DNA of 34,703 nucleotides, taken from the NCBI GenBank assembly GCA_035303785.1, contig DATGRI010000012.1:1-34703 (forward strand), in the 5' to 3' direction. The first letter of the stretch is position 1; each line of letters starts with the position of its first letter. This document shows positions 1,226-32,224 of this stretch, in pieces. The notes under the pieces are model-generated. The model was not told where the DNA came from, did no database searches, and saw nothing but the letters and a program-made list of their open reading frames with translations. The DNA comes from Sphingobacteriaceae bacterium. GTDB lineage: Bacteria > Bacillota > Sulfobacillia > Thermaerobacterales > RSA17. A program made the translations under genes and the position numbers.

Positions 1226-1287
1226 ACAATTGCGCAGGTTCCTTCCCCTCTGCGTGGAAACCATGTAGACGGGAGGGATCCGGGCTG

Positions 1288-23324: not shown

Positions 23325-24241
23325 TACGGCTTCAAGCCCGACAGGTATTCAATCATGATCTCGATATCTTCTTCAGTAGCCCCCAGCTGCTTGAGGGGGT
23401 TGGGCATGATGGTCTTATGGTCGCCCTGCCAATCGGCCACGATTTCCTTGGGCTCGTTGTTGCCCCACCAGATGGTGGGCATGCGGGGCTCCACGTTCTC
23501 CGTATCCGTCAGCCACCGGCGCAGGAATTCGGGCGTAGTCCAGTGGCCCACGTCGGCCAGGTTGGGGCCGAAGGGACGGCCGTAATCGCCGATGACGTGG
23601 CAGGTGATGCAGGCCCGCTCGATCATAAGCTGGCGGCCCCGGTCGTTCACTGCCCTGGACACTCCCACAGCCTCGGGCAAGTCGGAGGGCTCGATGGGCA
23701 CCTCGACGGAAATCATCTCATCCGGGTTTTCCGGGTTGGGCTGCTGGACCATCTTGGTGGTCACCGCCGGCGGGATCAAGGGGGTGACGTCGCGGAAGTC
23801 ACCCTCGGTAAGGAACACCACCAGATCCTCCACCTGCTGCTCGTTGAGGGGACCACCGTTCTCCTTCCCGAAGACGGGCATGGCCGTATGGGATTCGATG
23901 GTGCCGTCTTCGTGGTGGATCCAGGTGGTGGTGGCGTTGCCGCCACGACCCCGGGCGATGGTCCGGGTCAGGAACTCCCGGGTAGCCTCCATTTCGAGGG
24001 CGGTGCCTTCGCGCCATTCAGCCCGGAGGAGAGGCGGGCCGACCACGCCCTCACCGATGGGCCCGTGGCAAATGACGCAGTTTTCGGCGTACAGCTTGGC
24101 CCCCCGGGCGGCTTGCACCTCCGTCAGCCGCTCGCCGCCCTCGGCCAAGCGCCAGCCCTCGGTCATCCATGCGAATTGAAAGACCAATATGGTGAACCAC
24201 AGGACTAAAAGCGCAATAAGTTTTGTCTGCGGCGACCTCAC
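23324..24241 (-). CDS. membrane-anchored diheme cytochrome c of the quinol:cytochrome c reductase
   Basis: The electron-accepting c-type subunit of the bc complex. It has 305 residues. One N-terminal anchor occupies about 8-25. Two haem-binding sites, CVICH at 55-59 and CITCH at 211-215, mark two cytochrome c domains; Met121 and Met279 are plausible axial ligands. Between the domains is an acidic Pro/Asn-rich linker (165-185). The GTG at 24241 was chosen because AAAGGGGTCAGG precedes it and the anchor follows directly; the longer frame overlaps the 45-residue gene. Diheme cytochromes in this position are known from heliobacterial b6c-type complexes. Confidence 0.9.
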   Translation of the reverse strand: MRSPQTKLIALLVLWFTILVFQFAWMTEGWRLAEGGERLTEVQAARGAKLYAENCVICHGPIGEGVVGPPLLRAEWREGTALEMEATREFLTRTIARGRGGNATTTWIHHEDGTIESHTAMPVFGKENGGPLNEQQVEDLVVFLTEGDFRDVTPLIPPAVTTKMVQQPNPENPDEMISVEVPIEPSDLPEAVGVSRAVNDRGRQLMIERACITCHVIGDYGRPFGPNLADVGHWTTPEFLRRWLTDTENVEPRMPTIWWGNNEPKEIVADWQGDHKTIMPNPLKQLGATEEDIEIMIEYLSGLKP

Positions 24242-24278
24242 CGGTGCCTGACCCCTTTCCGCCGGCTGGGTGCCGGTA

Positions 24279-24416
24279 TCATTCTTCTGCTTCTTCGTCC
24301 GGCATGTACTCCAACGGATGGCCGAACTTGCGCTGGATGAAGTCGATGGCCCACATGGCAAGTCCGACCATGATCACAACGGCCAGGAGTTCGACCGACT
24401 CCAGAACTTCAATCAT
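24279..24416 (-). CDS. 45-residue single-span membrane protein of the cytochrome operon
   Basis: A 45-residue protein: a short acidic N-terminus (MIEVLESVE), one hydrophobic helix (about 10-27), then a charged C-terminus ending in four acidic residues among the last six. The ATG at 24416 has a strong AGGAGGGAG site. It sits between the Rieske and cytochrome c genes, 13 bases after the Rieske stop. Size, topology and location fit a small accessory subunit of the complex, comparable in principle to the Pet small subunits of b6f, but no homology is recognised. Confidence 0.65.
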   Translation of the reverse strand: MIEVLESVELLAVVIMVGLAMWAIDFIQRKFGHPLEYMPDEEAEE

Positions 24417-24429
24417 GGGCCGCTCCCTC

Positions 24430-25425
24430 CTAAACCGAAACTGGTGTGGCTTGATCGGGGTGATACCGTTCCCGCTCGATGATGGTGCCGGTATCAACCC
24501 AGATTTCCCCGTCCACTACCTCCACCGGGAACAAGTCCAGGGGACGGGGAGCGGGGCCGCCCAAATAGTCACCGGTAATGGAGAACTCCGAGCCGTGGCA
24601 GCCGCAGCAGAAGCAGCCGCCGTGCTCAGGGTGCTTGTCGGGCCGCCAGGGCACCGTGCAGCCCAGATGGGTGCACGTCCAATACACGGCCAGCAGGCCG
24701 TCGTTCACATGGACCAGATAGAACTTGCCGGCGTCCACGGCCGTGACGGTCCCCAAGGGGAACTTCTCCACCGGGCCGATGTTGATGCGGCTGCCGAAGG
24801 CGCCCAGACGGCGCGGCCAGAAGAAATCCAGGAAGAACAGGGAGATCTGGCCGAGGAAGAGCAGGGCGCCGCCCCAAATGCCCAGGCGCAGGAAGTCCCG
24901 GCGGGTGTACGCCTGGGTGCTGCCGGCCGGCTCCACGGGCTTCTCGGCCTTGCTGGCCGGCACCGCAGCCTTCTTCTTGGGCGCGGGCTTGGCCGCCCCG
25001 GCGGCAGCGCCTTTGGCCCCCGCGGCCTTGGCGGCAGCCAGCTTCTTAGCCTCTTCGATACGCTTTTGACGATCGGGGTCATCCTTACGGGCTTTGGGAT
25101 AAGTGCCCTTGGGCACATCGCCGGCGCCGGCCCCTGCCTTGGCGGCTGCAGCAGCAGCGGGGCGCTTGGGCCCGTCCGCCTTTGCGGGGGCTGCGGGCTT
25201 GGCCGCCTTGGGGGCTGCCTTTTCCGAAGAATCGCCGGCCTCGGCTTCAGCCTTGGGGGCGTCGGCCTTCGCCTCGGGCTTGGCGGCATCACCGGCCTGG
25301 GCCGCGGCGTCGCCCTGAGCTTTGGCTTCAGGGGCGCCGGCACCGGCGGCGTCGGGGCCGGGTTTGGCGGCCGCCGCTTCGGGCGTGCCCTCGCCCTCCT
25401 TCTTCGGATCCGGTTGTTCGTTCAT
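24430..25425 (-). CDS. Rieske iron-sulfur protein with long Ala/Lys/Pro-rich N-terminal extension
   Basis: The high-potential [2Fe-2S] subunit of the quinol:cytochrome c reductase. It has 331 residues, about twice the usual size. Residues 1-170 are low-complexity Ala/Lys/Pro/Asp/Glu. A twin-arginine motif follows (TRRDFLRLG, Arg175-Arg176) with one membrane anchor to about 200. The Rieske domain has box 1 CTHLGC at 251-256 and box 2 CGCHGS at 274-279, supplying both cluster ligand pairs and the disulfide. Two additional cysteines (271, 273) precede box 2. The ATG at 25425 has GGAGGTGG 7 bases before it. The extension would lie on the cytoplasmic side. Confidence 0.93.
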   Translation of the reverse strand: MNEQPDPKKEGEGTPEAAAAKPGPDAAGAGAPEAKAQGDAAAQAGDAAKPEAKADAPKAEAEAGDSSEKAAPKAAKPAAPAKADGPKRPAAAAAAKAGAGAGDVPKGTYPKARKDDPDRQKRIEEAKKLAAAKAAGAKGAAAGAAKPAPKKKAAVPASKAEKPVEPAGSTQAYTRRDFLRLGIWGGALLFLGQISLFFLDFFWPRRLGAFGSRINIGPVEKFPLGTVTAVDAGKFYLVHVNDGLLAVYWTCTHLGCTVPWRPDKHPEHGGCFCCGCHGSEFSITGDYLGGPAPRPLDLFPVEVVDGEIWVDTGTIIERERYHPDQATPVSV

Positions 25426-25482
25426 CCAGAGCCACCTCCGCCTAAAACTCAGTGGGTACGCCCAGCCATCCGGCAACAGCCA

Positions 25483-26196
25483 TTACTTGGGATGCTCCAG
25501 CTGCCAGGGCCAAACGAGCCGCATGCTGTCCCCGCGGAAGCCGGTGCCGATGATGGTGAGTACTACGTACGAAGCTACGAACATGGTGAACAGGGCGATG
25601 ATTACGTGCCGGGTGTCGGCCTGCCACCGCCGTCGCACGATGGATACCAGCAGGCCCGGAATGACGGACATGACTACGATGGGCACCACGATGCCGCCCA
25701 GGACATCCACCACCGCCGGGGGCAGGCCCAGCAGGCTCAGGGCCTGACGGGTGCCGATGAACTCGCTGAACAGCACAAGGCCGACGACCCAGACGGTCGT
25801 GTAGATAAAGGAGAACTTGGTGATGGCCCATCCCTTGCGGCTGGTGAACCAAACGCCCGTCCCCGCCTCATCCTTGTCGATGTAAGGGATGGCGGCGATG
25901 AGGATCAAAGCCACGGTGGGCAGCAGCACCCCGGCCAAGGTGGGATGCATGTGAAGCAGCAGCTCCTGCAGGTTCAGGAAGTACCACGGCGCCTTGGCGG
26001 GGTTGATGGTGTACTCCGGCTGGGCCAATTCCAGCAGGGGCGCCCGCAAGACGATGGACAGGATGATCAAAAGGCCCGTAAAGATCATCAAGCCGATGAA
26101 TTCGATGATTAGGAAGTGGGGCCAAGTGTTCACCCGCTCCAAAGGATCGGGCCGGCGTACCGTCTTTACCTCTTGAGTGGCTTCTTTGGTGGTCAT
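25483..26196 (-). CDS. cytochrome b subunit IV (C-terminal half of cytochrome b)
   Basis: The quinol-oxidation-site subunit that completes split cytochrome b. It has 237 residues, longer than the roughly 160 of chloroplast PetD, with about five or six membrane helices. The segment INPAKAPWYFLNLQELL (residues 64-80) aligns with the Qo region; the canonical PEWY reads APWY here, so the Glu is absent. The ATG overlaps the cytochrome b stop as ATGA and has AAGGAGGAGG upstream. It is the second gene of the operon. Confidence 0.9.
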   Translation of the reverse strand: MTTKEATQEVKTVRRPDPLERVNTWPHFLIIEFIGLMIFTGLLIILSIVLRAPLLELAQPEYTINPAKAPWYFLNLQELLLHMHPTLAGVLLPTVALILIAAIPYIDKDEAGTGVWFTSRKGWAITKFSFIYTTVWVVGLVLFSEFIGTRQALSLLGLPPAVVDVLGGIVVPIVVMSVIPGLLVSIVRRRWQADTRHVIIALFTMFVASYVVLTIIGTGFRGDSMRLVWPWQLEHPK

Positions 26197-27017
26197 CCGC
26201 GAGCCTCCTCCTTGACCGGACCAAGCACCGGGTGATCCTCGACGAGAATGGGCCGCGTAGCCGAGAAGCCGTCCTTACGCACCCGCCAGAAATGCAGGAG
26301 CATCAGCCAGAAGCCGATGGCCGGCAGGAACAGCACGTGGAGCGTGTACCAGCGGACGATGGTGGCCTGGCCGATGTCGTGGCTGCCGAGGAGCAAGATC
26401 CGCACCTGGTCGCCGATGATGGGTGAGGAGCCGCCCATGCGCACGCCTACGGTGATGGCCCAGTAGGCCAGCTGGTCGAAGGGCAGCAGGTAGCCGGTGA
26501 AGCTCAAGAGCAGGGTCAGGACGAAAAGCACCACACCGATGACCCAGTTGAACTTCCGCGTGCCTTTGTAGCCACCGGTGTAGAAAACCCGCAACATGTG
26601 GAGGAACACCAGGAGCACCATGACGTGGGCCGTCCAGCGGTGCAGGTTGCGGAAAAACTGGCCCATAAAGACGTCGGTGCCCAGGGCTCGGACGCTGAAG
26701 TAGGCGTCGGGAACCGAGGGCACGTAGTAAAACATCAAGAAGACACCGGTGATGGCCAGGATGAGGAACATCCCGAAAGAAAGCCCGCCCAGGCCTAAAG
26801 TGTAGCGGTAGTTGATGGAGTAGCGGGTCACCCGGTTGGGGTGCAGGTGAAGGAAGAGGTTATTCATGACCGCCAAGACCTGGGTGCGGCGGTTGTAAGG
26901 ATAATCACTCATGTAGATGGACTTGAACAACTCGGTCCGGCGAAAGGCCCCCCAGATTCTCAGGAAGAGCCCGTACAGGCCACGTTCTCGATGAACCCGG
27001 CCTTTGTCATCCTTCAT
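26193..27017 (-). CDS. cytochrome b6-type subunit (N-terminal half of cytochrome b)
   Basis: The diheme membrane subunit that moves electrons from the quinol-oxidising to the quinone-reducing site. It has 274 residues and four helices after a cytoplasmic N-terminus of about 70. The haem-binding histidines occur as two pairs: one with 13 residues between (LHRWTAH region to FLHML) and one with 14 (YTLHVLF to LLHFW). The 13/14 pattern is the b6 type rather than the mitochondrial 13/13 type. ATG 27017 has GAGGGGAG upstream; GTG 27038 lacks a ribosome-binding site. It is the first gene of the operon, with a leader of about 200 bases. Confidence 0.93.
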   Translation of the reverse strand: MKDDKGRVHRERGLYGLFLRIWGAFRRTELFKSIYMSDYPYNRRTQVLAVMNNLFLHLHPNRVTRYSINYRYTLGLGGLSFGMFLILAITGVFLMFYYVPSVPDAYFSVRALGTDVFMGQFFRNLHRWTAHVMVLLVFLHMLRVFYTGGYKGTRKFNWVIGVVLFVLTLLLSFTGYLLPFDQLAYWAITVGVRMGGSSPIIGDQVRILLLGSHDIGQATIVRWYTLHVLFLPAIGFWLMLLHFWRVRKDGFSATRPILVEDHPVLGPVKEEARG

Positions 27018-27428
27018 ACCCCTAGCGTCTCCCCTCACATGTCATGTTACAAGCGGCGGACCTGCGGCGTGGTCCAAGACCGTGGCACAACCCTAAACTG
27101 TTTCGCAGGGCGGTCGGTCCATTCCTGCTTGTCCGGGCGCCCGAAATGGGGTGTGGAGAGGGCTGTTGGACACGGTTGCCCACAGCCTACCGGTGTTTCT
27201 GCGCGGGCGGCAATCGGGCGCCCGCCCGATTTTAGCACAGGCGCCAAGCCCCTACAACGGAGGGAGCCGCTGCCGGGGGAATCTTTTCCGGATTGCCGCG
27301 GCATCCCGTCTCTCAAGGGAATGACGGGGCCGGCGCCCGGGGCGTACATGCTGTAGTCTTCTCCTTCATACACATATCAACGATTGCGGTCTAGGACCAG
27401 GCTTACGGGCTTGCCGAGGAGGATGATC
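27018..27428. other. intergenic region with cytochrome operon leader
   Basis: About 410 bases between the divergent cytochrome operon and the SH3 gene. The part 27018-27222 would be the transcribed leader of the cytochrome operon (minus strand); it has several GC-rich inverted repeats but matches no riboswitch or small RNA I recognise. The rightmost 170 bases precede the SH3 gene. They contain no convincing sigma-A promoter, only AT-rich patches near 27355-27385. Short open frames here look non-coding. Confidence 0.5.
27212..27257 (-). promoter_or_regulatory. promoter of the cytochrome operon overlapping a palindrome
   Basis: On the minus strand TTGTAG (27257-27252), a 17-base spacer and TAAAAT (27234-27229), with TGC before the -10. 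The start point is near 27222. A perfect 8-bp inverted repeat, AATCGGGC (27212-27219) and GCCCGATT (27224-27231), covers the end of the -10 and the start point, which is a typical position for a repressor operator. Confidence 0.6.
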
Positions 27429-27821
27429 ATGAGCGAATTGCAGGGGCTGGCGGAGCAGATGGTTTCGTCGGAAAAGCCGTTGCTGCAGGAATACGATGCA
27501 TTGGCCCGCCGGGCCGTCACTGAGACGGAGCGGCGCCTGGTGGATCAGATGATCCGGGCCCAGCGCTTCCAACTGGCGGCCCTGGCCCTGGTGGCCGAGG
27601 GCATGGTGCCCGAGAGCTTCCACTGCTTCGGGGTCATCACCCACGACGATGTGAAGGTGCGCATGGGGCCTTCTCCCCGGCAGGAGGAGAAGCGGCGGCT
27701 TCATCAGGGAGTGCCCGTGGTGGTGGAGGAATACCAGGGCAACTGGGCCCGCATCCAACTGCCCGACGGCGACAGAGGATGGGTTTTCAAGGATTACGTT
27801 CGCTGCGAGTTGACGGGCTGA
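27429..27821 (+). CDS. SH3-domain protein of unknown function
   Basis: A 130-residue protein. The N-terminal 60 residues are helical and charged (SELQGLAEQMVSSEKPLLQE, then an Arg-rich helix). The C-terminal 60 residues form a bacterial SH3 domain: DDVKVRMGPSP, a loop, then VPVVVEEYQGNWARIQL and GDRGWVFKDYVR. Such domains usually bind cell-wall peptides, but there is no signal peptide, so location is uncertain. ATG 27429 was chosen because AGGAGG ends 6 bases before it; an in-frame ATG directly at the AGGAGG is too close. Confidence 0.75.
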   Translation: MSELQGLAEQMVSSEKPLLQEYDALARRAVTETERRLVDQMIRAQRFQLAALALVAEGMVPESFHCFGVITHDDVKVRMGPSPRQEEKRRLHQGVPVVVEEYQGNWARIQLPDGDRGWVFKDYVRCELTG

Positions 27822-27917
27822 GCATTGTTTCGGGAGCCCCATGGCCGGGGTCCGGAATGGGCCCCGGGACCCAAAAAGGCTAAAAAAGCAGGACAAAGGG
27901 CATTTTCCGCTTAATAC

Positions 27918-27947
27918 CCTCCCGGTGATGTCTATTTTACCGGGAGG
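27918..27947 (+). promoter_or_regulatory. hairpin burying the ribosome-binding site of the SleB-type hydrolase
   Basis: CCTCCCGGT (27918-27926) is perfectly complementary to ACCGGGAGG (27939-27947) across a 12-base loop. The 3' arm contains the GGGAGG ribosome-binding site, 5 bases before the ATG at 27953. No T-run follows, so it is not a terminator. Confidence 0.65.
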
Positions 27948-27952
27948 AACCC

Positions 27953-28825
27953 ATGATTCGTGACAGCGGCGCCTTTAGCCGGCGGCGTCTGGGTGTCCTG
28001 CTCGCCTTGGCCTTGACGGCCGTCCTGCTGATGGGCATCACCCCCGCCGCCGCCTCGGGCAGCCCCATTTCGGTAAACGGTGAGCCTTTGGCCCTGGAGG
28101 CCCCGGCCATCACGAAGAACGGGCGGGTGTTCGTGCCCGTGCGGGATCTGGCGGAAGCCCTCCAGGCCCAACTGTTCTTTTATCAAGATGTGGCGGTGAC
28201 CCTGAACCACGGGGTGCAGAGCGTCACCCTCCGGGTGGACAACCCGGCGGCGATCCTCAACGGGGCCACCGAGACCATCGAGGATGTACCCTTCATCGCC
28301 CACGAGCGCATTTACATCCCCTTGCGGCTGACCTCGGAGAACTTGGGGTTCTCCGTGGAGTGGGATGCCGAAACCCAGTCCATCACCATCACCAAGGTGG
28401 ATCCCCAGGTCGCCACGGCAGCCTTTGACTCGCCGGCGGCAGGTGAGACCGGGGAAGCCCACGTTGCCTACACCGATCAGGAATTCGAACTGCTGGCCCG
28501 GGTCATCAACGCCGAAGCCTACAGCGAGCCCTACGAAGGCAAGGTGGCGGTGGGCAACGTCATCATCAACCGGGTGCTGCATCCCAAGTTCCCCAACACC
28601 ATCTGGGACGTCCTGCATGCCCCCAATCAGTTCACTGTAGTGTTCAACGGGCAGATAAACCGGCCGGTGCGGCCCGACTCCTATGAGGCGGCCCGGGAAG
28701 CCCTGTACGGGGCCGACCGCAGCCACGGGGCCCTCTACTTCTACAACCCCAGGGTCAGCACCAGCAGCTTCTGGCAGGGCCGGCCCATGACGGTGGAGAT
28801 CGGCAACCACCGCTTCACCCGCTGA
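27953..28825 (+). CDS. SleB/CwlJ-type cell-wall hydrolase with copper-amine-oxidase-like domain
   Basis: Predicted secreted peptidoglycan hydrolase of the spore-cortex-lytic type. It has 290 residues. The signal peptide covers about 1-35 (Arg-rich start, Leu/Ala core, PAAASG). A stalk domain of the copper-amine-oxidase N type spans 38-150 (VNGEPLALEAPAITKNGRVFVPVRDL, then IYIPLRLTSENLGF). The Hydrolase_2 domain spans 174-290 with LLARVINAEAYSEPYEGKV (probable catalytic Glu188), VGNVIINRV, FTVVFNG, GALYFYNP and FWQGRP. Such enzymes act in germination or vegetative wall turnover. Its ribosome-binding site lies in a perfect hairpin. Confidence 0.92.
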   Translation: MIRDSGAFSRRRLGVLLALALTAVLLMGITPAAASGSPISVNGEPLALEAPAITKNGRVFVPVRDLAEALQAQLFFYQDVAVTLNHGVQSVTLRVDNPAAILNGATETIEDVPFIAHERIYIPLRLTSENLGFSVEWDAETQSITITKVDPQVATAAFDSPAAGETGEAHVAYTDQEFELLARVINAEAYSEPYEGKVAVGNVIINRVLHPKFPNTIWDVLHAPNQFTVVFNGQINRPVRPDSYEAAREALYGADRSHGALYFYNPRVSTSSFWQGRPMTVEIGNHRFTR

Positions 28826-28859
28826 GCCCGGAGCAGGCAGTTTTTCCAGACATTAAAAG

Positions 28860-28904
28860 GCTCCCCCCGGAGGCAGAATAAGGTCCGGTCACCCCGGGGG
28901 GAGC
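28860..28904 (+). promoter_or_regulatory. hairpin burying the ribosome-binding site of the MFS gene
   Basis: GCTCCCCCCGG (28860-28870) pairs perfectly over 11 bp with CCGGGGGGAGC (28894-28904), with a 23-base loop. The 3' arm holds GGGGGGAG, the only ribosome-binding site for the TTG at 28912. No T-run follows on this strand. Confidence 0.65.
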
Positions 28905-28911
28905 GAAGCGC

Positions 28912-30219
28912 TTGAAGCCCGCCACCAGGAAGCCTTTTGCCGTTCTAGCTTCGGTGCCTTTCGTGATGGTCCTGAGCAACTCCATGCTCATCCCCGTGCT
29001 GCCCGCCCTGCAGCGGGGCCTGAACATCAGCCTCTTCAAGGCCGGCCTCCTCATCACCGCCTTTTCCGTGGTGGCGGGCCTGGTCATCCCCCTGGCGGGG
29101 ATCGGTTCCGATTATTGGGGCCGCAAGACGGTGATGGTGCCCGCCTTGTTTCTGTTCGGCCTGGGCGGGCTGGTAGCGGGCCTGGCGCCCGTCTTTTTCA
29201 AGAATGCCGCCTACCCCGTCATCATCGCCGGCCGCATCATCCAAGGGGTGGGGGGCGGCGGCACCTACCAGGTTGCCCTGGCCCTGGCCGGCGACATCTT
29301 CCAGAGCAAAGAGCGGTCTAAAGTCATGGGCCTGCTGGAGGCGGCCAACGGGCTGGGGAAGGTCATCAGCCCCATCCTGGGCGCCGCCCTGGGCATCATC
29401 AACTGGTATGTGCCCTTTTTCGCCTATCCGGCCTTGGCCTGGGCTTCGGCCGCCGGCTTGTGGCTGGTGGTCCGGGAGCCCAAGGAGAAGGCCCAGCCCC
29501 GCAGCCTGTCGGCCTACCGGAAGGATTTGCAGGAGGTTTTCGCCGGCCGGGGGCTGCCCCTGGCGGCGGCCTTCGCCAGCGGGGCCGTGGTGCTGTTCAT
29601 GCTGTTCGGCGTGCTCAGCTGGTACTCGGATGTGCTGGAAAAGGACTACCACATCACCGGCATCGTCAAGGGGCTGGTCATCGCCATTCCCGTTCTGGTG
29701 CTGTCGGTCACCGCCTGGCTGGGAGGGACCACCCTGCAGCACCACCTGAGCCGGTGGCTGCGGGCCACGGTGATGGCAGGGCTTGCCCTGGGGGCCGCCG
29801 CCTTGGCCGGTCTGATCTTCGCCAGGGGCATCTACTGGGTGACGGCGGCCCTGGTGCTCCTGGGTTTCGGCAACGGCTTGGTCCTGCCCACCCTGAACAC
29901 GGGCGTCACCAGTTCGGCCGGGGAGTCCATTCGGGGCCTGGTCACGGCCTTATACGGCACGGTGCGCTTTTTTGGCGCCGCCCTGGGGCCGCCGGCCTTC
30001 GGCTTGATGGTGGATATGGGCGTGACCCTCACCTTTGCCCTGGCCGCCGGCCTCCTGGCGGCGGTGGGGGTGATGGTTTTCTTCTGGCTGGATCAGAAGA
30101 AACTGCTGCCCCCCGAAATGGCCAAAGCCGGCAAGGCCCGGCAACCCAAGCAGCGCCGGGCGAAAAAGGTGCGGCCCGTGGGCCCCCTGGTGCGGCTGGG
30201 CAACGACGACGACGGGTAG
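28912..30219 (+). CDS. major facilitator superfamily transporter (DHA1-like)
   Basis: A proton-coupled transporter or efflux protein of 435 residues with 12 predicted membrane helices. Motif A appears as GSDYWGRKTVMVPAL near 64-78 and the helix-4 motif as GRIIQGVGGGG near 106. It has a cytoplasmic loop near 190-215 and a basic C-terminal tail (Lys/Arg-rich, 400-425) ending in acidic residues. The substrate is unknown. It lies between the spore-type hydrolase and the phosphosulfolactate synthase, so a sulfonate or other small anion is one idea; drug efflux is equally compatible with the sequence. The TTG start lies 7 bases after a hairpin that includes its ribosome-binding site. Confidence 0.9.
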   Translation: MKPATRKPFAVLASVPFVMVLSNSMLIPVLPALQRGLNISLFKAGLLITAFSVVAGLVIPLAGIGSDYWGRKTVMVPALFLFGLGGLVAGLAPVFFKNAAYPVIIAGRIIQGVGGGGTYQVALALAGDIFQSKERSKVMGLLEAANGLGKVISPILGAALGIINWYVPFFAYPALAWASAAGLWLVVREPKEKAQPRSLSAYRKDLQEVFAGRGLPLAAAFASGAVVLFMLFGVLSWYSDVLEKDYHITGIVKGLVIAIPVLVLSVTAWLGGTTLQHHLSRWLRATVMAGLALGAAALAGLIFARGIYWVTAALVLLGFGNGLVLPTLNTGVTSSAGESIRGLVTALYGTVRFFGAALGPPAFGLMVDMGVTLTFALAAGLLAAVGVMVFFWLDQKKLLPPEMAKAGKARQPKQRRAKKVRPVGPLVRLGNDDDG

Positions 30220-30286
30220 TTTCGGGGCTCCGGGCCGCCCGGCGGAATCGTTCCAGTTCCAATAGGAAGTTTAGGGTGCTGCTCTG

Positions 30287-30313
30287 CCTCCCCTGCATAG
30301 GCTGGTTGGGAGG
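30287..30313 (+). promoter_or_regulatory. weaker hairpin at the ribosome-binding site of comA
   Basis: CCTCCC (30287-30292) is complementary to GGGAGG (30308-30313) with a 15-base loop. The ribosome-binding region GGGAGGAGGAG extends beyond the stem, so sequestration would be partial. Listed because the two upstream genes show the same arrangement more strongly. Confidence 0.35.
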
Positions 30314-30327
30314 AGGAGCCGGTTTCC

Positions 30328-31209
30328 ATGCCCGCAGACCATCTTCCACCTTCTCAACAACCCAGCCCCCAGTCGCCGCCGGTGTGGGATCCGGCCTGGG
30401 GCCAAGCCGTAGAGGCGCCCATGGCCCGGACCGAGGCCAAGCCCCGCCGGCGGGGCCTCACCATGGTCATGGACAAGGGCATGTCCCTGGCCGAGGGCCG
30501 GGGCTGGCTGGATTTATGCGCCCCCTACGTGGATTTCGTCAAACTGGCCTTCGGCACATCGGTCTTGTACGACGGAAGGGTGCTGGCGGAGAAAATTCGC
30601 CTGTTCCGCCACTTCGGTGTGGAGGTGTATCCCGGCGGCACCCTGCTGGAGATCGCCATCATGCAGGATCGGGTCAAGGCCTTCGTGGAGCGGGCGCGAC
30701 GGCTGGGCTTCAAAACCTTGGAGGTATCCGACGGCACCATCAACTTGCGGCCCCGCTACCGGGAGCGGCTCATCCGCGCCTTGACGGCCGAAGGGTTTCA
30801 AGTGCTGACCGAAGTGGGCAAGAAGCACCCCGCCGACCGGGTGCCCCACATGCGCATCCGGGAGCAGATTCTGGAGGACCTGGCCGCCGGTGCCTTCAAG
30901 GTCATCGTGGAGGGGCGGGAATCGGGCAAGGGCGTGGTCATCTACCGGGACGACGGCTCCATCGACGGGGATGAATTGGAATCGTTGGCCCGGGTGGTGC
31001 CCGACCCGGATCTGCTCATTTGGGAGGCGCCCCACAAGGACCAGCAGCAGGATTTGATTTTGCGCTTCGGGCCCAACGCCAACCTGGGCAACATCCGGCC
31101 TGAGGAGGTGCTGTCCCTGGAGGCCCTGCGCCAGGGCATGCGGGGCGACACTTTGCGCCACATCTTGCTCACCCGGCCCCAGCCGTCCGGCGAGCCCACC
31201 TGGCCTTAG
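30328..31209 (+). CDS. comA: phosphosulfolactate synthase (ComA family)
   Basis: Joins sulfite to phosphoenolpyruvate to form (2R)-phospho-3-sulfolactate. It has 293 residues and a TIM-barrel fold. Family landmarks: KPRRRGLTMVMDKG at 38-51, DLCAPYVDFVKLAFGTS, EVYPGGTLLEIA, FKTLEVSDGTINL, LTEVGKKHPADRV and VIVEGRESGKGV. The family is known from coenzyme M synthesis in methanogens and from YitD-type proteins linked to sulfolactate in Bacillus spores. About 30 Pro/Gln-rich residues precede the core; ATG 30421 is an alternative start without that extension, but 30328 has the stronger ribosome-binding site. Sulfite could come from cysH-sat nearby. Confidence 0.88.
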   Translation: MPADHLPPSQQPSPQSPPVWDPAWGQAVEAPMARTEAKPRRRGLTMVMDKGMSLAEGRGWLDLCAPYVDFVKLAFGTSVLYDGRVLAEKIRLFRHFGVEVYPGGTLLEIAIMQDRVKAFVERARRLGFKTLEVSDGTINLRPRYRERLIRALTAEGFQVLTEVGKKHPADRVPHMRIREQILEDLAAGAFKVIVEGRESGKGVVIYRDDGSIDGDELESLARVVPDPDLLIWEAPHKDQQQDLILRFGPNANLGNIRPEEVLSLEALRQGMRGDTLRHILLTRPQPSGEPTWP

Positions 31210-31258
31210 GCGGGCACCGGCACGGCACCCCGTTCCCCTCCGGAACCGGCCCATGCCG

Positions 31259-32224
31259 TCAGCGAGGGGCCGGATGGAGGGGCGGCAGGCCCCTGAGCAC
31301 CCGGCCTACATCTTCAGCCACCTGGCGTCCTACCCGTTCCTGGGCTTCCTCCGTCAACCCGGCTGTATGAGGAGTAAGGATCACCTGGTCCAAGGCCGCC
31401 AGGGGGTCGGGCTGGGGCGGCGGTTCATGCTCCCGCACGTCCAGGGCGGCGCCGGCCAGGCGGCCCGAAGTTAGGGCGGCCAGCAGGGCGGCTTCGTCCA
31501 CCACACCCCCGCGGGAAGTGTTGACCAGCAAGGCTCCCGTCCGCACGGGGGCCAGGCGCCGGGCGTTGACGTAATGCAGGGTATCCGGCCGCAAGGGCAA
31601 GTGGATGGAGATGATGTGGGCCGTGGCCCACAACTGCTCTTCTGCCACCCAGTCGACGCCGGCGGTGATGAGGTCGGGGTGCCCGGCGTGCTTACGGGGG
31701 TGGTGGGTGATGCAGTGCATTCCCAGGCACCGGGCGGCTTCCGCCACCAGGCGGCCTACGGTGCCGAAGCCCACAATGCCCCAAGTCTTGCCCCGCAGTT
31801 CGGTGCCCAGGAGGGCGCCCCGGTCCCACCGGCTGCTCCGGGCCATGGCATCGGCAGCCCGTAATCTCTTGGCCAAGGCCAGAGCCAGAGCCACGGTATG
31901 CTCGGCCACCGAAGCCGCATTCCCCCAAGGGCTGTACACTACTTGAACTCCCCGGTGCCGGCAGGCAGGCACGTCCATGTTGTCCAGGCCGGCGCCCAAA
32001 CGCCCCACCACCCGCAGATGGGGCGCCCGGGCCAGGAGGGCAGCGTCCACCAGGGTGCGGTTGCGCACCACCAGCCCATGAGCACGGGCTACAGCCTCTT
32101 CCAAGGCCTCCCGGTCTTGCGCCAGGCCGGGCTCGTACACCACGGTGCCCAGGGGTGTCAGATGCTCCAAGGTGCCGGGCGGCACGAACTCGCTGACTAC
32201 GATGTGGAATCCGGTTTCAGCCAC
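31259..32224 (-). CDS. D-isomer-specific 2-hydroxyacid dehydrogenase, sulfolactate-dehydrogenase-like
   Basis: An NAD(P)-dependent oxidoreductase of 321 residues. The Rossmann motif GFGTVG lies at 152-157; the second strand ends in CITHHPR, lacking the acidic residue of NAD-specific enzymes, so NADP use is possible. Catalytic residues are Arg238 (NTSRGG), Glu265 (DVREHEPP) and His286 (LTPHTAG). The N-terminal pattern (VVSEF, VVYEPGL, LVVRNRTLVD, VGRLGAGLDNMDV) recalls SlcC-type (S)-sulfolactate dehydrogenases and related 3-phosphoglycerate dehydrogenase paralogues; this comparison is from memory. It is convergent with comA. The GTG start follows AAGGAG. Confidence 0.82.
   Translation of the reverse strand: MAETGFHIVVSEFVPPGTLEHLTPLGTVVYEPGLAQDREALEEAVARAHGLVVRNRTLVDAALLARAPHLRVVGRLGAGLDNMDVPACRHRGVQVVYSPWGNAASVAEHTVALALALAKRLRAADAMARSSRWDRGALLGTELRGKTWGIVGFGTVGRLVAEAARCLGMHCITHHPRKHAGHPDLITAGVDWVAEEQLWATAHIISIHLPLRPDTLHYVNARRLAPVRTGALLVNTSRGGVVDEAALLAALTSGRLAGAALDVREHEPPPQPDPLAALDQVILTPHTAGLTEEAQERVGRQVAEDVGRVLRGLPPLHPAPR

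Follow-up and report, generated by a model that had tools for sequence, protein, structure and literature searches.

The stretch of DNA analysed here (the window, 34,703 nucleotides) carries, among others, four genes, SH3, sleB, MFS and comA, that are co-directional on the + strand:

27429..27821 (longest ORF from 27384), + strand: SH3-domain gene upstream of sleB (PF08239/PF06347)
27953..28825, + strand: sleB-like cell-wall hydrolase with a Cu_amine_oxidN1 domain, 290 aa (PF07486, 5e-31; PF07833, 1e-23)
28912..30219, + strand: MFS transporter, TTG start, 435 aa (PF07690, 1e-55)
30328..31209, + strand: comA, phosphosulfolactate synthase (PF02679, 7e-84)

The catalytic part of the hydrolase fits SleB (Hydrolase_2) and its N-terminal half is Cu_amine_oxidN1; against the model for the SleB spore cortex-lytic enzyme (TIGR02869, spore_SleB) it reached 6e-40 and 137 bits, under the curated cut-off of 236.5. 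The start of the MFS gene is backed by orthologues that align from residue 1, and the best NCBIfam model for its product was BcbE, with a score under the cut-off of that model. Elsewhere in the window, a 629-aa + strand ORF (24223-26112) had no Pfam match, and the coding model favours the - strand ORFs 24430-25425 and 25483-26196 over it; it is unlikely to be a gene.

ComA acts in the synthesis of spore sulfolactate. In B. subtilis this compound accounts for 5% of the dry weight of spores, and the yitCD operon is mainly controlled by sigmaK, with some contribution from sigmaE (PMC517825). The MFS gene adjoins comA in at least 12 relatives, and sleB lies about 1 kb from comA in another. In four relatives the MFS orthologue is found 4-6 kb from sigG, which suggests an old sporulation neighbourhood. 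Some MFS orthologues have forespore promoters that fit the consensus, and two (L035 and L039) have perfect sigmaG sites, GCATA-N18-CATGTTA; sites agreeing at 9 or more of 10 positions were present for 4 of 29 MFS orthologues and 12 of 30 sigG genes, and for 0 of 30 each of tyrS, pfkA and yabP. On the grounds of these MFS-comA and sigG neighbourhoods, the role of comA and the sigmaG sites of MFS orthologues, the sleB-MFS-comA cluster most likely belongs to sporulation.

The Shine-Dalgarno (SD) sequences of sleB and the MFS gene both lie in hairpins, located by sequence and by folding, and a shorter stem precedes comA:

27918-27926, + strand: 5' arm of the sleB hairpin, CCTCCCGGT
27939-27947, + strand: 3' arm of the sleB hairpin, ACCGGGAGG, holding the SD GGGAGG (27942-27947)
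28860-28870, + strand: 5' arm of the MFS hairpin, GCTCCCCCCGG, within the spacer of a candidate -35/-10 pair
28894-28904, + strand: 3' arm of the MFS hairpin, CCGGGGGGAGC, holding the SD
30287-30313, + strand: 6-bp stem of comA, CCTCCC (30287-30292) with GGGAGG (30308-30313), fold z +0.14

The initial annotation had reported two perfect stems that mask SDs, and both are where it placed them. CCTCCCGGT and ACCGGGAGG form 9 perfect base pairs, which one G-U and one A-U pair extend to 11 in the fold, and the ATG of sleB follows the masked SD at 27953; GCTCCCCCCGG and CCGGGGGGAGC form 11 perfect pairs ahead of the TTG start at 28912. Fold and opening energy agree that both SDs are masked, and the view that these are not terminators stands as well, neither hairpin having a T-run on its 3' side. 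Set against dinucleotide shuffles, as had been recommended, the sleB fold gave z from -3.8 to -5.9 with 0 of 200 shuffles equally stable, and the MFS fold gave z from -1.2 (86 nt) to -2.3 (61 nt); the comA fold gained nothing over its shuffles (z +0.14).

Our survey covered 1.34 Mb of this 1.64-Mb genome, in which we called genes and measured their start regions. Ranked by the energy needed to open the SD at 37 C among 1242 genes, sleB came 1, MFS 7 and comA 112, and at 65 C the ranks were 2, 5 and 35; the sleB and MFS stems are extreme for this genome. The inclusion of comA in the set on account of its hairpin could not be upheld, and a direct RNA-level switch for that gene was dropped, given its ordinary fold and its rank of 112. 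The loop of the comA stem holds GCATAGGCTGG (CATA at 30296-30299), a mother-cell-type -10, and comA ranks 40 among about 1230 genes of its genome by sigmaE-type matrix score. PfkA, which had been listed among the genes free of a comparable stem, proved to have one: its SD (start 1288) is masked by a long imperfect hairpin (window 1228-1287, CCTTCCC...GGGAGGG, with one G-U pair) that takes 13.1 kcal/mol to open.

In a GC-rich genome with G-rich SDs, the pair of stems might be nothing but the visible tail of what chance produces. Perfect stems of at least 9 bp over the SD zone were found in 11 of 1232 genes, against 5.4 expected from shuffled upstream sequence (the MFS gene, whose start had been called too far in, was left out of this count), and the expected number of 11-bp stems is about 0.4 per genome. 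The proposed check on GC content thus gave a divided answer: by itself a stem of 9 bp is no rarity here, one of 11 bp is. Two neighbours would both fall in the top 7 with a chance of about 3% under random placement (our own estimate, for a pair picked post hoc). We then annotated 30 of the top 40 SD-hairpin genes and 30 random genes by one fixed score. The top set includes GerA, coat F, a SpoIIQ-like peptidase, a YlxY/PdaB-like deacetylase and SigG, while the random set had no recognisable spore genes (Fisher p ~0.03, our own estimate). The sigG gene (L143:17898-18665) in this set recalls the small SD hairpin of B. subtilis sigG. Standouts by perfect stem were YabP (12 bp) and a YkuD L,D-transpeptidase (10 bp).

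Conservation, which had been proposed as a further check, is absent for both window stems in their respective orthologues. The sleB hairpin was found in 0 of 15 other sleB-type genes, which are only 34-41% identical to it; for the MFS protein, a scan of genome contigs found no close relative, the nearest comparison genome being of another genus (62% identity). Taken as a family, the MFS orthologues do carry more SD stems than expected, at 5 of 29 vs. 1.1 for stems of at least 7 bp (P = 0.002) and, with swaps within GC quartiles, 3 of 29 vs. 0.4 for at least 8 bp (P = 0.006), the window's own gene being counted in both.

Orthologue upstream regions were collected from 60 relatives in the class, and as a control the upstream half of each was combined with the SD half from another genome within the same family. 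A first set of 30 sigG, 30 yabP and 30 spoIIM loci held 10 stems of at least 8 bp vs. 2.4 expected from swaps (P = 0.0004); for tyrS and pfkA together there were 0 vs. 0.9 expected. YabP and spoIIM had been picked via the lead from the window's own genome, and further genomes were then fetched as replication: 24 more for yabP gave 5 stems of at least 8 bp vs. 1.0 (P = 0.002) and 16 more for spoIIM gave 4 of at least 7 bp vs. 0.6 (P = 0.005). When swaps were made only within GC quartiles, 9 of 55 yabP genes (2.7 expected) and 7 of 46 spoIIM genes (1.2 expected) had stems of at least 8 bp, each count reached by 0 of 4000 permutations. Pooled, this is 16 of 101 genes vs. 4.0 (GC-stratified swaps; 0 of 4000 permutations), with the reservation that some genomes are related (f18, f25) and the stem cases are not all independent. 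Perfect stems of at least 7 bp were absent from the tyrS and pfkA loci of the class (0 of 60; pfkA, 30 loci), no excess was seen in the class for spoIVA (P ≥ 0.27) or spoVT (P ≥ 0.49), two families selected beforehand, and sigG and comA had none under GC stratification. Nor was there any for yabP in 36 GTDB genomes outside the class (P ≥ 0.18); the two longest yabP stems outside the class set (L437 and L435) have CATA in the loop.

The arms themselves have wholly different sequences from genome to genome: CCCCGTCCGC with GCGGACGGGG, TTCCCTCCTT with AAGGAGGGAA, CTTTGCAC with GTGCAAAG and GACCCTGCCTC with GAGGCAGGGTC. Because they differ between genomes yet match each other, they point to selection for pairing and not for sequence. 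The case for chance draws on the roughly 5 genes with stems of at least 9 bp expected per genome sample, on the lack of conservation of the two window stems and on an adjacency that was noticed after the fact; it has to contend with two window genes whose opening energies are among the 7 highest of 1242, with the expectation of about 0.4 for an 11-bp stem, and with an excess that spore-gene families show and housekeeping genes do not. We consider it rather unlikely.

The position of the promoter bears on what the stems could do. Of the 22 stems of at least 7 bp in yabP and spoIIM, 19 enclose a sigmaE-type -10, CATA, mostly at -1 to +9 nt relative to where the 5' arm ends. The matrix derived from these genes reads GtCATAa ... 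ggCATAa..TT, which by comparison with the B. subtilis consensus would be a sigmaE-type promoter. Within the 20 nt before the -10, complementarity of at least 7 bp to the SD was found in 8 yabP genes vs. 2.8 expected and in 9 spoIIM genes vs. 2.8 (0 of 5000 permutations); in a window 22-44 nt further upstream it was found in 1 and 2. Since C is abundant in the spacers ahead of CATA and G in the SDs, such complementarity could in principle be a by-product of promoter make-up that needs no selection. We find this highly improbable: the expectation of 2.8, which the observed 8 and 9 far exceed, already comes from genuine spacers and SDs re-paired within a family and GC stratum, and several arms are not simple C or G runs (CTTTGCAC, TTCCTAG, GACCCTGCCTC).

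The same layout can be seen in the window's own genome, where its strongest examples are yabP (L152:429-743) and the YkuD-type gene (L123:7990-8787), with SD stems of 12 and 10 bp; in both, CATAGGCATG borders the loop and another GCATA is placed at the spacing of a -35. In a gerA gene (L103:1090-2685), the 5' arm of a 7-bp SD stem overlaps with a sigmaG-like site, GATTA-N18-CATCCTC. Across this genome, CATA was not enriched upstream of SD-hairpin genes (3 of 35 vs. 72 of 521), and the test for sigmaE sites was marginal (2 vs. 0.2 in the top 25 SD-hairpin genes, P = 0.014; top 50, P = 0.05).

A transcript begun at such an embedded promoter would lack the 5' arm, and the stem would be possible only in RNA that reads through from upstream. 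The initial annotation had named a promoter inside the stem as a finding that would tell against its proposal. Such promoters are what we see in yabP and spoIIM of the relatives; the phenomenon is not removed by them, and because they sit inside the stem the mechanism shifts to a lock that acts on read-through mRNA alone.

Candidate promoters in the window are:

27910..27916, + strand: best sigmaG-like -10 of sleB, CTTAATA, with GCAGG 17 nt upstream (8/10 of the consensus, shuffle p ~0.11)
28851..28855, + strand: candidate -35 of the MFS gene, CATTA (CATTA-N18-CAGAATA, 7/10, p 0.12 position-constrained)
28874..28880, + strand: candidate -10 of the MFS gene, CAGAATA, in the loop, 4 nt past the 5' arm and 38 nt before the start codon

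MFS orthologues with sigmaG sites of 9-10 out of 10 have the -10 at 35-42 nt before the start in L039, L035 and L056 (offsets -35, -39 and -42, vs. -38 for the window gene) and at 52 nt in L050. L056 repeats the layout of the window gene with a strong site, GGATA-N18-CATGGTA, whose spacer holds the 5' arm of a 9-bp stem. For sleB, GCAGG-N17-CTTAATA is a weak candidate (p 0.11) that would place the start near 27923, inside the 5' arm; TTAATAC was enriched upstream of starts (6 vs. 0.24 expected), and a consensus scan of sleB orthologues showed no enrichment for any sporulation sigma factor. The embedded geometry appears to fit the MFS gene; for sleB we can only infer it.

No terminator-like site on the + strand was found between SH3, sleB, MFS and comA, the only two + strand hits sitting inside the MFS gene, and SH3 is the likely source of read-through mRNA into sleB. 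The direction of the upstream neighbour across orthologues gave no signal, antisense ORFs being long in GC-rich DNA. In read-through RNA the predicted chance that the SD is unpaired is 0.001 for sleB and 0.002 for MFS; from their inferred own starts it is 0.50 and 0.26.

Stems that mask an SD are also the classic form of regulated translation, in which the 5' arm belongs to the normal mRNA and a protein, small RNA, ligand or temperature opens the stem, and the normal leader of B. subtilis sigG likewise has a small SD hairpin (PMC5942855). Here, an Rfam search of 26100-31300 gave nothing near any gathering score, and no known riboswitch or cis-regulatory RNA family was matched. An RNA thermometer, which would melt within the growth range, finds no support either: at 65 C the SDs of sleB and MFS are still predicted to be paired at 0.99-1.00 and their stems to cost 11.8 and 10.7 kcal/mol to open. 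Stem sequences vary by gene and genome, which leaves no common site for a protein, and the -10 is inside the stem in 19 of 22 family cases. Regulated translation is therefore improbable in our judgement. From the shared control of a small gene set that had been suggested, the tie to sporulation survives, and the temperature switch and the RNA-binding protein are not supported, the former on the opening costs at 65 C and the latter for want of a common sequence.

Our preferred reading, to which we assign a probability of about 0.55, is that the hairpins at sleB and MFS are locks on sporulation genes that act in read-through messages. RNA arriving from an upstream gene would contain both arms, the SD would be buried, and the hydrolase and transporter would go unmade in growing cells. 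Once the sporulation sigma factor is active, transcription would begin within the hairpin, at a point beyond most or all of the 5' arm, leaving the SD free for translation. For sleB and MFS we infer each element of this (promoters inside the stems, read-through mRNA and the block on translation). Cortex hydrolases and other sporulation proteins might damage cells that are still growing, and transcription in bacteria runs on beyond the ends of genes. If the reading is true, these hairpins would be a filter that needs no regulator, with only messages begun at the sporulation promoter being translated: a lock on leaked-in messages alone, impossible in the gene's own message, would make translation specific to the stage. 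We give even odds to the wider proposal that a sporulation promoter embedded in a hairpin masking its own SD is a recurrent design in this class, evolved repeatedly with new sequences, and that sleB and MFS are among its users. Recurrence across the class, in several spore genes and with matched arms of different sequence, would make it a general design.

Two known systems provide the closest comparisons. In phage T4, long early transcripts of gene e form a hairpin over the SD and give 100-fold less lysozyme, and late promoters just upstream of the ribosome-binding site yield transcripts that lack the 5' part and are translated (PMC3014915). The T4 late genes e, soc, 49 and I-TevI (PMC3014915) have their SDs masked in long early transcripts, as is predicted for the window stems, and the product of gene e is a cell-wall hydrolase, as is that of sleB. 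The T4 system differs in that it concerns phage genes and the T4 late sigma and was shown by experiment, whereas ours concerns bacterial sporulation sigma factors and is computed only. For B. subtilis sigG, a large hairpin that cannot form in transcripts from PsigG has been proposed to block translation of read-through RNA (PMC5942855); there, with read-through from spoIIGA-sigE (PMC5942855), a spore gene lies downstream of an earlier-transcribed gene, as would be the case in the window. That proposal is for one gene and a hairpin of at least 20 bp, whereas the present stems, of 7-12 bp, belong to yabP and spoIIM, with MFS and sleB as probable further cases, and their sequences are unrelated from one genome to the next. 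RNA thermometers and riboswitch leaders share the sequestration of the SD, but the present stems match no known family, stay closed at 65 C and probably have no 5' arm in their own mRNA. Of the features that mark such a lock, an SD in the 3' arm of a stem that is stable in long transcripts is predicted by folding and accessibility; a promoter inside or 3' of the 5' arm was found by motif in 19 of 22 yabP and spoIIM stems, the window sites being weak (p 0.11-0.12); and upstream transcription may run into the genes, which are co-directional and have no + strand terminator-like site between them. The window hairpins would most likely work in the manner of T4 gene e and the proposed B. subtilis sigG hairpin.
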